Notes under the pieces: model-generated
Told to the model about the DNA's origin: nothing
The model's database searches: none
Seen by the model: the letters and a program-made list of their open reading frames with translations, nothing else
Position numbers and translations under genes: made by a program
Part shown: positions 5,536-31,379 of the stretch, one piece after another
Layout of the letters: every line of letters begins with the position of its first letter
How positions within the stretch are numbered: the stretch's first letter is position 1
Origin: an uncultured Bacillota bacterium
GTDB taxonomy: Bacteria > Bacillota_I > Bacilli_A > RF39 > UBA660
Assembly (NCBI GenBank): GCA_947303895.1
Contig: CAMYZQ010000004.1
Coordinates: 1 to 34,932 of the forward strand
Direction of reading: 5' to 3'
DNA length: 34,932 bases

Positions 5536-5996
5536 TAAGTGGAAAGCAGTTTGAGAACAGATTTAAATTAGAATGGGAAAAAAGTTTTCCTAATTCTTTT
5601 ATACTAAGGCTCCCTGATCAAATGTCGGGATATAAATATTCAAATAATATATGTGATTTTATATGTTTTAATGATGGCATTCTATATCTAATCGAATGCA
5701 AAGCTCATAAAGGAGCTAGTATCCCTTTTGATAAAATATCTCAATATCCTAAACTTTTAGAGAAAGCGAATATTTACGGAATAAGATCTGGTGTGATATT
5801 ATATTTATATGAAAAATATAGAGTATTTTATATACCAGTTACTACGATAGAGCAAATGAAAAAAGATGGTAAAAAGTCTGTAGGTATAAAAGCTTTAGAA
5901 GAAGGTTATAATATTATTGAAATTCCTTCTAAAAAATTAAGAGTTTTTACTGATTCTGATTATTCTGTTTTACAAAATTTAAAAGAAGGAGAGTAG
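5532..5996 (+). CDS. RecU-like Holliday junction resolvase
   Basis: GKQFENRFKLEWEKSFP...DFICFNDGILYLIECKAHKGASIPF (PD-(D/E)XK core); start at ATG 5532 overlaps the homing endonuclease stop (ATGA). Confidence 0.8.
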   Translation: MISGKQFENRFKLEWEKSFPNSFILRLPDQMSGYKYSNNICDFICFNDGILYLIECKAHKGASIPFDKISQYPKLLEKANIYGIRSGVILYLYEKYRVFYIPVTTIEQMKKDGKKSVGIKALEEGYNIIEIPSKKLRVFTDSDYSVLQNLKEGE

Positions 5997-6887: not shown

Positions 6888-8074
6888 TGGCTGAATTAAC
6901 TTTAAATGGAGTTTTAAGAGATATAAGTAAGAGATATGGAGATAATGTTGCAAAGTTTGGTGCAGATAGTCTAGAAGTAGATGGAATTCTTTCACTTGGA
7001 TCTCCAATGCTTGATTATTGTCTTTATGGTGGAATTCCTGAAGGTAGAATAATTGAACTTAGTGGTGCTGAGGGATCAGGTAAAACTACTACCGCATTTA
7101 TGATTGCAGCTTCTTATATAAAAGAAGAGCTTAAAAGAAATCCAGAAAATCCTAGATGTATTATCTTTTTAGATAATGAAGGTACACTAGATCCTACTTG
7201 GGCGTCAGTATTTGGTTATGATTTATCTGAGGATGCTCCTGTAAAAACAATTGTAATTAGACCTGAGGGCCAGAATGCTGAAGAAATTTTTGACATGGCT
7301 CTAAATCTTCTTAGAACAGGAGAAGTGGGTTTACTTATATTTGATAGTATTGCTACTCTTGTTCCTGCTCAAATAGCTGATGAATCTATGGAAAAATATC
7401 AAATGGGAGGTATTGCAAAATCATTAACTAGATTTGCTAATACAGCCCTAGGACTTCTTAGAAAATATCATGCTACTCTTATAGCTATTAATCAGGTTCG
7501 TGAGAATATGTCTGGATATGGAAATCCTATTACTACTCCAGGAGGTAGAGCTTGGAAACATGCTTGTTCTTCAAGATTAATGTTTAAAAGAGGAGAATTT
7601 TTTGATGCTGATGGAAATAAGCTGTCAACTACTGCAGAATCTCCAGCAGGTCATATTGTAAATGTAGCTGTTTTAAAGACTAAAACTAATAAGTGGGATA
7701 GAAAAGGTGGTTCATATAGATTAAATTATACAAGAGGTGTAGATATTTTATCTGATACTATTGAAGCAGCTTTGCATTTTGGTCTAATAGATAATAGTAC
7801 TCAGGGCTCATATAAAATTATTGACCCAGAAACAGGTGAAATAAAACTAGATTCTGAAGGTAAAGAAATTAAGATAAGAGGTAAAGCAAATGTAACTACT
7901 TATTTTAATGAACATTTAGATGAATGGAAAGCGTTGTATAATGCTGTTTACGATAGAATAAGAGAAAAAGAATCTCCATATCATTTTGCATTTGAACAAA
8001 TGCTTAATAGTGAAGTAGATAAAGTGTTTGGAGATAGTATAGCTAGAGCTAGAGCTGAGGAAGAAGAACTATGA
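6887..8074 (+). CDS. recA: RecA recombinase
   Basis: Walker A GAEGSGKTT; IFDSIATLVP; INQVREN; GGRAWKH. Confidence 0.95.
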   Translation: MAELTLNGVLRDISKRYGDNVAKFGADSLEVDGILSLGSPMLDYCLYGGIPEGRIIELSGAEGSGKTTTAFMIAASYIKEELKRNPENPRCIIFLDNEGTLDPTWASVFGYDLSEDAPVKTIVIRPEGQNAEEIFDMALNLLRTGEVGLLIFDSIATLVPAQIADESMEKYQMGGIAKSLTRFANTALGLLRKYHATLIAINQVRENMSGYGNPITTPGGRAWKHACSSRLMFKRGEFFDADGNKLSTTAESPAGHIVNVAVLKTKTNKWDRKGGSYRLNYTRGVDILSDTIEAALHFGLIDNSTQGSYKIIDPETGEIKLDSEGKEIKIRGKANVTTYFNEHLDEWKALYNAVYDRIREKESPYHFAFEQMLNSEVDKVFGDSIARARAEEEEL

Positions 8075-28777: not shown

Positions 28778-28958
28778 GTATTCAATAACCGCCAACCTTC
28801 GATCGAAGAGCAAGAGGCGAGCTCATTAAAAACGCTGATGAGTTGGTTAAGACGTGGGAAACTCCCCGTATGAGTAGGTTACATTAATGCGGTTACTACT
28901 CAATTAGGAGATAACCCGTTACGTCGGGGAGATGATAAAAAAACGTAGCGGGTATTAT
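28778..28958 (+). ncRNA. unassigned structured RNA upstream of tRNA-fMet
   Basis: Visibly less AT-rich than flanks; inverted repeats TAACCGC/GCGGTTA, TGAGTAG/CTACTCA, CCAAC/GTTGG, CTTCgatcGAAG, ACCCGTTACGT/ACGTAGCGGGT. Confidence 0.5.
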
Positions 28959-29034
28959 CGAGGGGTGGAGCAGTCGGAAGCTCGTCGGGCTCATTACCCG
29001 AAGGTCGTGGGTTCAAGTCCCACCCCCTCAACCA
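28959..29034 (+). tRNA. initiator tRNA-fMet (CAT)
   Basis: Cloverleaf CGAGGGG..GAGC/GCTC..TCGGG-CTCATTA-CCCGA..GTGGG-TTCAAGT-CCCAC..CCCCTCA-ACCA; C1:A72 mismatch and GGG:CCC anticodon stem are initiator hallmarks. Confidence 0.92.
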
Positions 29035-29118: not shown

Positions 29119-29200
29119 GGGGATGAATATGGTTTCGGTATGGCTTAAAAGCCAAAGTGCATAGCTGTACACCTCGGTTCGATTCCGAGCATCTCCACCA
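29119..29200 (+). ncRNA. tmRNA tRNA-like-domain-like / aberrant tRNA-like RNA
   Basis: Acceptor GGGGATG/CATCTCC with G3.U70, T-arm CTCGG-TTCGATT-CCGAG, ACCA end; no D-stem, no normal 7-nt anticodon loop; 5' GGGGaTGAaTaTGGtTTCG resembles tmRNA 5' end. Confidence 0.6.
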
Positions 29201-29243
29201 AAAGGGCATATGCCTTGTATATATACATAAAATTCAGATTAAA

Positions 29244-29326
29244 TGGCTCGTTAAAGGAAAAGCCTTTACTAAAGAGAGAATTGATCTTTAGTTACTGGTT
29301 CTGAAGCTGTTCTAGTAAGTCAGCCA
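29244..29326 (+). ncRNA. four-helix-junction RNA between tRNA-like genes
   Basis: P1 TGGCT/AGCCA; P2 TAAAGG/CCTTTA; P3 CTAAAGA/TCTTTAG; P4 TTACTGG/CTAGTAA; zero-nucleotide linkers between P2, P3 and P4. Confidence 0.5.
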
Positions 29327-29340
29327 GCGGTAGATGTTTT

Positions 29341-29472: not shown

Positions 29473-29486
29473 GGAGGGAAATGGAT

Positions 29487-31037
29487 ATGATTAAGGAAAG
29501 AAAGAACTTTGTAGAAGCATTGAAGACTCAGAACAGTAAGAAGAAGACTTTTACTGAAAATGGTGCTGTGGCGTATGAAACTACAGGCAAGTATTTACTT
29601 GACTTTAATTTCAAGCTGTCTCAGTACAGAAATATGAGTGTTGAGGAGATTAAGAAGGACTTTGCTAAGGTTTACTTCGAAGATCCTAAGCTTGCTACAA
29701 AGTTTATTTTTTATATTGGAGATGCTAGAGGCGGTCTCGGTGAAAGAAGAACTTTCAATGCTTGCATTGATTGGCTTGTAGAAAATAATTCTGAAGTTGC
29801 TGCTAAAGTAGTTAAATTTATCCCTGAATATACTCGTTGGGATAATCTTGTTAAACTTATCAGAAGTAGAAATAAGTATATTTCAACAATAGTGACAGTT
29901 GCTATTGGAAATCAACTTATTGAAGATTTGGATAACATGGCTGCTGGAAAGAGTGTTTCTCTTTGTGCTAAATGGCTTCCTTCAATAAATGCATCTTCTG
30001 CTGAGACAAGATCTTTGGCTAATTTTCTTTGTAATCAGCTTTGTCTTACTCCTAAGAAATATAGAAAGACTCTTTCTGCTCTTAGAAAGTATCTTGATGT
30101 AGTTGAAGTCAAGATGTCTGCAAATGAGTGGAATAAGATCGATTATTCTAAAGTACCATCTCTTGCTAATATCAAATATACAGATGCATTTTATAGAAAT
30201 GATCCTTATAGAAGAGTGGAATATCTTGCTTCTCTTAAGAGAGGCGAGACAAAAATTAATGCTTCTGTTTCTCAGCCTCATGAGATAGTAAGAAGATATT
30301 ATAATCAGCCTAATTCTTGGTGGCATGAAATAAAAGAAGTTGATACAGCACTTGAAGAAATGTGGAAGGCTTTGCCGAATATTTCAGTAGAAGATAGTCT
30401 CATAGTTAGAGATGGTTCTGGTTCTATGTGCTGTTCTGTAGGCCATAATTCTAAGACAACTTGTCTTGATGTAGCTACAGCTCTTACTATTTATTGTGCA
30501 GAGCATAATTCTAATATTTGGAAGGATAAGTTTATTACTTTTTCTTCTAGACCTAAGTTTGTAGATCTTTCTAATTGCAAAACACTTAGAGATAAGCTTA
30601 TTAGGTGTGATGCAGAAGATGATTGTTCTAACACTAATATTGAAGCTACAATGAGGCTTATTCTTGATACTGCTATTGAGAATAATCTTTCTCAGGAAGA
30701 CATGCCTAAGAATATTGTAATTATTTCTGATATGCAGTTTGATGCGAGAAGAAATAGCTTCAATTGGAATAAGACATTGTTTGAGCAGATTGCTGAGGAT
30801 TATGCTGAAGCTGGATATAAGCTTCCAAAGATCTGTTTCTGGAATGTTTGTTCTAGAAATTTTGATACTATTCCTATGCAGAATAACGAACTTGGTCTTG
30901 TTCTTTGTAGTGGATTTTCTATTACTAATATGAATATGTTTATGAGTGGAGAAATTAATCCATATAAAGTTCTTGTTGAACAGATTAATGGTGAAAGATA
31001 TGATCCTATTGACAAAGCAATAAATAATATAATATAA
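29487..31037 (+). CDS. TROVE/DUF2828-like protein with C-terminal vWA (MIDAS) domain
   Basis: FIFYIGDARGGLGERRTFNACIDWL; KWLPS..KKYRKTLSALRKYLDVVE; LIVRDGSGSM (DxSxS), NTNIEATM, NIVIISDMQFD; ATG 29487 better spaced from AGGAGGG than 29481. Confidence 0.8.
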   Translation: MIKERKNFVEALKTQNSKKKTFTENGAVAYETTGKYLLDFNFKLSQYRNMSVEEIKKDFAKVYFEDPKLATKFIFYIGDARGGLGERRTFNACIDWLVENNSEVAAKVVKFIPEYTRWDNLVKLIRSRNKYISTIVTVAIGNQLIEDLDNMAAGKSVSLCAKWLPSINASSAETRSLANFLCNQLCLTPKKYRKTLSALRKYLDVVEVKMSANEWNKIDYSKVPSLANIKYTDAFYRNDPYRRVEYLASLKRGETKINASVSQPHEIVRRYYNQPNSWWHEIKEVDTALEEMWKALPNISVEDSLIVRDGSGSMCCSVGHNSKTTCLDVATALTIYCAEHNSNIWKDKFITFSSRPKFVDLSNCKTLRDKLIRCDAEDDCSNTNIEATMRLILDTAIENNLSQEDMPKNIVIISDMQFDARRNSFNWNKTLFEQIAEDYAEAGYKLPKICFWNVCSRNFDTIPMQNNELGLVLCSGFSITNMNMFMSGEINPYKVLVEQINGERYDPIDKAINNII

Positions 31038-31042
31038 TTGGT

Positions 31043-31125
31043 TAGATGCTTACAGCAACATTTAAAGGATTTTTCTTTATTATATCTTAGCATTAAGACA
31101 TTTAATAACATAAATATAGCATCTA
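31043..31125 (+). ncRNA. R1: stem-bulge RNA element
   Basis: TAGATGCT / AGCATCTA perfect 8-bp stem, TACAGCAAC bulge, inner hairpins AAAG..CTTT and TCTTA-gcat-TAAGA. Confidence 0.6.
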
Positions 31126-31134
31126 GTGAAAATT

Positions 31135-31194
31135 TAGGCACTAACAGCAACACATAAAACGATAATTGCAAATTATGGAGTAATATAGTGTCTA
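31135..31194 (+). ncRNA. R2: stem-bulge RNA element
   Basis: TAGGCACT / AGTGTCTA stem (one G.U), AACAGCAAC bulge, inner ATAATT-gca-AATTAT hairpin. Confidence 0.55.
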
Positions 31195-31205
31195 GTCGAA
31201 TTTAA

Positions 31206-31288
31206 GCTTCATTGGTGGAATTGGTAGACACGCAAGATTTAGGATCTTGTGCCTATGCGTATAGGTTCGAGTCCTATATGAAGCACCA
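31206..31288 (+). tRNA. tRNA-Leu (TAG), class II
   Basis: GCTTCAT/ATGAAGC acceptor, CAAGA-TTTAGGA-TCTTG anticodon arm, variable arm TGCCTATGCGT, ATAGG-TTCGAGT-CCTAT T-arm, ACCA. Confidence 0.93.
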
Positions 31289-31289
31289 T

Positions 31290-31349
31290 AAACCACTTAC
31301 AGCAAATATATGCATTAGACTGGTAATCTAAATTGGCAAAACGTGGTTT
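31290..31349 (+). ncRNA. R3: stem-bulge RNA element with tRNA-anticodon-like hairpin
   Basis: AAACCAC / GTGGTTT stem, TTACAGCAA after 5' strand, inner TTAGA-CTGGTAA-TCTAA hairpin. Confidence 0.55.
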
Positions 31350-31350
31350 G

Positions 31351-31379
31351 TTTAATATTTATTAATATATATGTATAAT
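31351..31379 (+). promoter_or_regulatory. sigma70-like promoter
   Basis: TTTAAT - 17 bp - TATAAT. Confidence 0.55.

Follow-up and report, generated by a model that had tools for sequence, protein, structure and literature searches.

Probable phage Y RNAs with a shared handle and exchangeable tRNA-like modules beside the gene for a predicted Ro60-fold protein

A stretch of DNA of 34,932 nucleotides assigned to an uncultured Bacillota bacterium (the window; contig CAMYZQ010000004.1 of assembly GCA_947303895.1) carries a gene for a Ro60-like protein followed by three small elements, R1, R2 and R3 (Table 1). Ro60, a human lupus autoantigen, is a ring-shaped RNA-binding protein. The original prediction, made from the sequence of the window, had described R1 to R3 as copies of an RNA that combines a constant platform, i.e. 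an outer stem and an ACAGCAA bulge, with a variable payload, and had suggested a recognition element carrying different effector or target regions. We report that these elements belong to an RNA family that has a conserved covarying stem, a link to genes for proteins of the Ro60 fold and an excess of anticodon-arm mimics. Beyond what had been predicted, the platform goes with a protein of (modelled) Ro60 fold, and many of the payloads are tRNA modules, not antisense targets.

The Ro-like gene and R1 to R3

The 518-residue product of the gene upstream of R1 gave significant Pfam matches only to DUF2828 and to the von Willebrand factor A (vWA) family DUF7788 (metal-site motif DGSGS) and did not match Pfam TROVE (PF05731); we therefore regard it as a relative of the Ro60 fold and not as a member of PF05731. 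An AlphaFold2 model based on 39 aligned sequences (predicted local distance difference test score 87.6) aligned over its full length with Ro60 (1yvp; VIA-align Z 22.7, root mean square deviation 3.8, 408 of 518 residues), and also with the Ro60 of Thermus phage phiLo (9l5y; Z 14.4) and Deinococcus Rsr (2nvo; Z 13.4), while Foldseek gave an E-value of 4.6e-8 to 9kop. According to the model the protein has the Ro60 fold, a helical-repeat ring closed by the vWA domain, and the metal ion-dependent adhesion site (MIDAS; DxSxS...T...D) is complete, with D311, S313, S315, T385 and D417 invariant. The protein thus resembles the Ro60/Rsr/TROVE proteins of known structure (1yvp, 2nvo and 9l5y) in its ring and vWA domain, its full length and its retained MIDAS, but it is only approximately 12% identical to them and has Pfam families of its own, DUF2828 and DUF7788, instead of TROVE. 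Homologues were present in 682 phage records with hosts that include Escherichia, Mycobacterium, Salmonella, Vibrio, Listeria, Staphylococcus, Campylobacter, Enterococcus and others, and some are annotated as 'Ro-like RNA binding protein'.

R1, R2 and R3 were found where they had been predicted, with the outer stem and ACAGCAA in all three, the latter 0-2 nt beyond the 5' arm each time, and with the inner hairpins that had been quoted. The stems are GTTAGATGCT/AGCATCTAGT in R1, TTAGGCACTA/TAGTGTCTAG in R2 and, for the core stem of R3 (31288-31351 in its wider extent), AAACCAC/GTGGTTT. All three copies exist, but the span does not consist of three tandem copies since a tRNA-Leu(UAG) gene separates R2 from R3, and R3 begins one base past the CCA of this tRNA. 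With respect to the interiors, R1 has AAAG-GATTTTT-CTTT and TCTTA-GCAT-TAAGA and no canonical anticodon arm; R2 can be folded as ATAA-TTGCAAA-TTAT (31162-31176; a Cys GCA-like loop on 4 bp) or alternatively as ATAATT-GCA-AATTAT; and the R3 hairpin is a textbook tRNA anticodon arm with a 7-nt loop, C32, U33, GGU, A37 and A38. Hence, anticodon-arm mimicry in the window is clear in R3 (Thr GGU), weak in R2 (Cys GCA, 4 bp) and absent from R1. Neither tRNA-Thr(GGU) nor tRNA-Cys(GCA) was among 30 tRNA loci examined in the source bin (1.13 Mb, 71% complete), which is not necessarily the host.

A promoter ends just upstream of R1, and its predicted start (approximately 31044-31046) lies at the base of the R1 stem, so transcription is expected to begin there; promoters are placed similarly at platform copies of other loci. 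On its own the window would not settle what the element is, because single-sequence folding of R1, R2 and R3 was not significant (z -0.9, -1.8 and -1.3, respectively) and ACAGCAA alone is only approximately 2.5x as frequent as expected. None of the three matched an Rfam family, even at an E-value of 1, YrlA (RF02553) included, and ARAGORN and Rfam identified no tRNA (cloverleaf, CCA end) among them.

Table 1. Positions of the Ro-like gene, the platform RNAs and YrlA matches (loci other than the window are given as L and a number)
Feature	Locus	Position	Strand	Basis or remark
Predicted Ro60-like ring protein, DUF2828 + DUF7788 vWA, MIDAS DGSGS, PHROG 850 'RNA-binding protein'	Window	29481-31037	+	Pfam, PHROG, AlphaFold2, fold match
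Sigma-70/A-type promoter, TTGACA-N18-TATAAT, perfect	Window	31009-31038	+	Within 3' end of Ro-like gene
R1 platform RNA	Window	31041-31127	+	Core stem 31043-31049/31119-31125, ACAGCAA 31052-31058
R2 platform RNA	Window	31134-31195	+	Core stem 31135-31141/31188-31194, ACAGCAA 31144-31150
tRNA-Leu(UAG), CCA encoded	Window	31206-31288	+	Between R2 and R3
R3 platform RNA	Window	31290-31349	+	Core stem 31290-31296/31343-31349, ACAGCAA 31299-31305
R3 payload, anticodon-arm mimic TTAGA-CTGGTAA-TCTAA	Window	31315-31331	+	Thr GGU type loop
YrlA match inside platform	L007	4477-4584
YrlA match inside platform	L007	4655-4778
YrlA match inside platform	L172	2735-2843
YrlA match inside platform	L012	6572-6643

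The platform motif, its spread and its stem

It is the comparison with other loci that settles the element, through a hexamer screen, a strand bias and covariation. In the screen, every hexamer in 83 non-redundant loci was scored for an adjoining stem with no motif assumed. CAGCAA ranked first of 4087 hexamers (z 48.5), ahead of AGCTCA and GCTCAG from the tRNA D arm, and was found beside a stem in 137 of 556 occurrences at 58 loci compared to a background of 1.3% and to 1/297 on the other strand. The platform consensus reads 5'-(T)AAG(G/A)C(A/G)C-NN-(A/G)CAGCAA ... G(Y)G(Y)CTT(G)-3', and (A/G)CAGCAA sits in a place comparable to that of the Ro-binding motif of cellular Y RNAs.

Within 3 kb of a Ro-like gene, platform copies on the same strand were present at 68 of 96 loci (172 copies) versus 3 copies on the opposite strand. 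When IMG/VR was searched with nothing but the DNA pattern, 74 stretches were returned, 41 of which contain a Ro-like gene, in all cases on the same strand, and eight further records have one elsewhere in the record. Y RNAs are characterised by being encoded beside a Ro60-type gene, and this applies to the platform RNAs both at the 68 loci and in the DNA-only search, which leads to Ro-like genes. They are also frequent near tRNA genes: 61 of 107 copies are located within 500 nt of one, and many others adjoin the Ro-like gene and have no tRNA gene nearby. For example, Bacillus phage vB_BcoS-136 (L006 1894-4886) has approximately 10 copies among approximately 18 tRNAs, several with a consensus promoter of their own, and in L097, L133, L135 and L146 the platform RNAs lie within tRNA arrays of large phage contigs.

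To avoid circularity, covariation was examined in all 174 non-redundant sequences that match the 5' consensus, for which a pairing partner was not required; 162 of these have a 3' arm, which was not constrained where pairing was tested. At position -4 we counted 121 A-U, 37 G-C, four G.U and no A.C pairs (Fisher p 2e-32), and at position -6 the numbers were 59, 96, seven and zero (Fisher p 9e-37). Related copies are not independent, so these p values are overstated, while the absence of A.C is plain regardless. Moreover, 12 mycobacteriophage copies are 100% paired although four of the pairs have changed on both sides. The paired 5' and 3' ends that typify Y RNAs are thus present, in a stem conserved by covariation. 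According to the original prediction, orthologues with outer stems broken and not compensated would speak against it; because the stems covary and neither tested pair has an A.C mismatch in any of the 162 copies, it withstands this test.

The notion of a platform that stays constant while the payload varies likewise holds across hundreds of copies, and is seen at orthologous sites. In L015, where the Ro-like protein is 66-67% identical to that of the window, a copy (7775-7840) also follows tRNA-Leu(UAG) and has the stem of R3, AAACCACT/AGTGGTTT, around an unrelated interior; L096, another contig of the same bin with a Ro-like protein that is 83% identical, has two copies with different interiors. 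At orthologous sites, therefore, the handle is kept and the payload is swapped.

Payloads and neighbouring RNAs

To be scored as a strict anticodon arm, a hairpin needed a stem of 5 bp or more and a 7-nt loop with Y32, U33 and R37. Such arms were present in 48 of 245 short copies compared to 4.9 (sd 2.2) in shuffled inserts, i.e. an approximately 10-fold excess, and after merging of similar interiors in 23 of 133 cluster representatives where 3.2 are expected by chance. Reversed sequences gave 3; the reverse complement (20/133) is an unfair control since the rule is nearly self-complementary. Hairpins with loops of 5, 6 or 8 nt were not enriched in the short copies. As in tRNAs, position 37 tracks position 36, with G37 following G36 in six of seven cases (Pro-type loops). 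The commonest identities are Lys UUU (14/48) and Asn GUU (9), and on copies Lys UUU is in excess over phage tRNAs (14/48 versus 40/979, p 3e-8). The idea that the arms descended from tRNAs with the same anticodon found no support when the stems were compared (p 0.73).

Pieces of tRNA occur in long platform copies from phages of Bacillus, Enterococcus, Mycobacterium, Escherichia, Citrobacter and Cronobacter as well as from metagenomic contigs. Some of these have a T arm followed by an acceptor-like hairpin and a D arm, that is, the permuted YrlA module, and Rfam YrlA matches inside the platform (Table 1) score 34-45 bits (E-values of 7e-7 to 9e-4 for a search of 46 kb), short of the gathering cut-off of 69 bits. 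The tRNA model positions 6 to 65 match in L006 2960-3022, a tRNA body that has the platform instead of an acceptor stem. These data suggest a single handle that can carry several payloads, the YrlA module among them; a second conserved motif was not found in the payloads.

The window, an AT-rich phage contig, has genes for a UvsX-like recombinase, a clamp loader, SbcCD-like proteins and an anaerobic NrdD, and ARAGORN and Rfam identified only three true tRNAs in it. Positions 29119-29200 encode an 82-nt tmRNA-like RNA (Rfam RF00023, 58 bits), also present at L096 1169-1250 and L015 approximately 5622-5702, that has the acceptor (G3.U70), D and T arms and lacks a tag reading frame and a normal anticodon loop; it looks like a tmRNA cut down to its tRNA-like domain. 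Approximately 140 nt of conserved non-coding sequence follow directly. A complete phage-encoded tmRNA with the predicted tag AKNEELLAVA was found in Enterococcus phage EFDG1 (L007 1125-1472). Further non-coding spacers between tRNAs, with segments conserved in L096 and L015, are located at 28840-28960 and 29240-29340 of the window.

Probable phage Y RNAs and their possible roles

Taken as a family, the platform RNAs are very likely phage Y RNAs that would be bound by the Ro-like protein, by analogy with cellular Ro60, and R1 to R3 are probably members, each combining a predicted Ro60-binding platform with an exchangeable tRNA module. We also favour, with less assurance, that the payloads work through tRNA mimicry. 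In the mechanism that we propose, the 5' and 3' ends of a small RNA pair in a stem of 7-10 bp whose 5' arm leads into the near-invariant (A/G)CAGCAA, and this handle is predicted to be bound by the Ro-like ring which, judging from Ro60 biology, may stabilise or shield the RNA. The loop holds the payload, in many copies composed of tRNA parts such as a short anticodon arm, a tRNA body lacking its acceptor stem or a permuted T-arm/D-arm YrlA module, and could offer a tRNA-like face to enzymes that act on anticodon loops. The likeliest use would be as a decoy against anticodon nucleases of the host during infection, or as a tether for handling the damage they cause, and this would fit the location of platform RNAs in phage tRNA arrays.

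Bacterial Y RNAs such as YrlA (RF02553), for which Chen et al. 2014 is said to be the reference, resemble the platform RNAs in that they lie beside a Ro60-type gene, have a 5'/3' stem and carry a tRNA-like module in the loop, and some long platform copies match the YrlA model. Unlike YrlA, R1 to R3 and other short copies have neither the YrlA module nor an Rfam match; their recognisable payloads are anticodon arms, each phage has several different copies, and the phage platform has (A/G)CAGCAA next to the covarying AAGRCRC stem. The Salmonella rsr-yrlBA-rtcBA operon similarly ties a Ro protein and tRNA-mimic Y RNAs to tRNA damage in the anticodon loop: it responds when tRNAs are cut, and the authors of that study consider that YrlA could competitively inhibit the anticodon nuclease (PMC7790460). 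Near its Ro-like gene, phage P100 encodes two ligases, an RNA ligase and one for tRNA splicing. Unlike the Salmonella operon, the present system is phage-borne and has many RNA copies, and rtcBA was not found among the window proteins tested (neither an RNA ligase nor RtcB among ten large proteins). PARIS AriB cuts tRNA-Lys, and T5 escapes with a tRNA-Lys of its own (PMC11455837); the excess of Lys UUU would be in keeping with a phage RNA that counters such an attack on tRNA-Lys, although platform RNAs, unlike the T5 tRNAs, are not tRNAs and accompany a Ro protein, and we infer their action as decoys. It is because of the Salmonella suggestion and the T5 case that we rank decoy or repair tether as the leading role, which as a specific function we put forward tentatively. 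Equally tentative is its general form, in which tailed phages of a wide host range might combine one Ro60 protein with Y-type RNAs that share a handle and serve as decoys or repair guides against anticodon nucleases, the interchangeable modules possibly being anticodon arms of different identity, tRNA bodies and permuted elbows.

Expression data are available for Listeria phage CKA15, where non-coding RNA (ncRNA) regions upstream of the Ro-like gene CKA15_055 dominate the transcriptome and were guessed to be Y RNAs by the authors, who also reported two other abundant unannotated regions besides CKA15_059-061 and detected CKA15_055 in purified particles with 57% coverage (PMC12282133). Three unannotated platform copies are located at L014 3154-3418, between CKA15_059-061 and the Ro-like gene. 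We considered and rejected the CKA15_059-061 transcripts as platform copies, the latter being 0.8-1.4 kb downstream; CKA15_059-061 (L014 2009-2319) represents a second ncRNA by the tRNA array and the Ro-like gene, without the CAGCAA platform.

Several observations weigh against our interpretation. The most abundant ncRNA in the CKA15 RNA-seq data is CKA15_059-061 and not the platform copies (PMC12282133). No copy was present within 3 kb at 28 of the 96 Ro-like loci, and DUF2828/TROVE was not detected in the long platform-carrying records L097 (277 kb), L135 (248 kb), L133 (200 kb) and L146 (175 kb), which may be incomplete or may encode Ro proteins that have diverged. Approximately 20% of the short copies meet the strict arm rule and 40% a relaxed one (of which approximately 15% is chance), and since so few do, most short payloads are still undescribed. 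The excess of Lys UUU is smaller after merging of similar copies (5/29 clusters). Finally, the stems of the mimics are not nearer to tRNAs of the same anticodon, which also argues against recent decay of ordinary tRNAs.

The main rival to a decoy or repair role is a tether of the Deinococcus kind, where Y RNAs would join the Ro-like ring to a PNPase-like ribonuclease of host or phage that degrades structured or host RNA, with the tRNA-like payload merely helping folding or nuclease docking. Bacterial Rsr is joined to PNPase via a Y RNA (PMC7790460, PMC8058203), the Ro-like protein has the predicted fold of Rsr and Ro60, such a tether has been proposed for CKA15 (PMC12282133) and overexpressed Ro-like gp53 of LeBron is toxic (PMC13148394). 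Nevertheless we consider it rather unlikely, as it leaves both the many different anticodon arms and the clustering within tRNA arrays unexplained, and the payloads are without a conserved second motif. Judged by the composition of the payloads, it is much less probable that they are antisense or guide regions for host mRNA or rRNA, the target idea of the original prediction: interiors do differ at orthologous sites that keep the platform, but the short payloads are non-random, with 7-nt-loop U33/R37 hairpins at approximately 10x chance, and the long ones are YrlA or tRNA modules. Degenerate, armless tRNAs that decode on the ribosome, with the long stem as acceptor stem, would account for the location in tRNA arrays, the stem of approximately 7 bp, the anticodon arms of a subset and the tRNA bodies of some copies; yet no CCA end is encoded, near-invariant (A/G)CAGCAA occupies the place of the D arm, approximately 80% have no strict anticodon arm, permuted YrlA payloads are unable to decode and the mimic stems are unlike those of tRNAs with the same anticodon, and we regard this as highly improbable. 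No better are signals for processing or transcription between arrayed tRNAs, suggested by elements that sit between tRNAs and by R3 directly after a CCA, given that at several copies a promoter of their own would start transcription where the stem begins, that many adjoin the Ro-like gene away from tRNAs and that processing needs neither a conserved loop motif nor YrlA payloads.

Ro60 in phages and Y RNAs in mycobacteriophages are already known, the latter being cited in PMC12282133. We found neither the platform motif nor its spread nor the class of anticodon-arm payloads in Rfam or the papers searched, and they appear to be new, although an earlier description in a phage is possible. Ro60-like genes in hundreds of phage genomes are annotated as 'RNA-binding protein' or hypothetical; a countable family of RNA partners with a simple consensus provides testable substrates for each such phage. 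This RNA family connects Ro60 biology with the tRNA arrays of phages, and decoys or tethers built from tRNA arms offer a concrete idea for why phages have Ro60 and Y RNAs.
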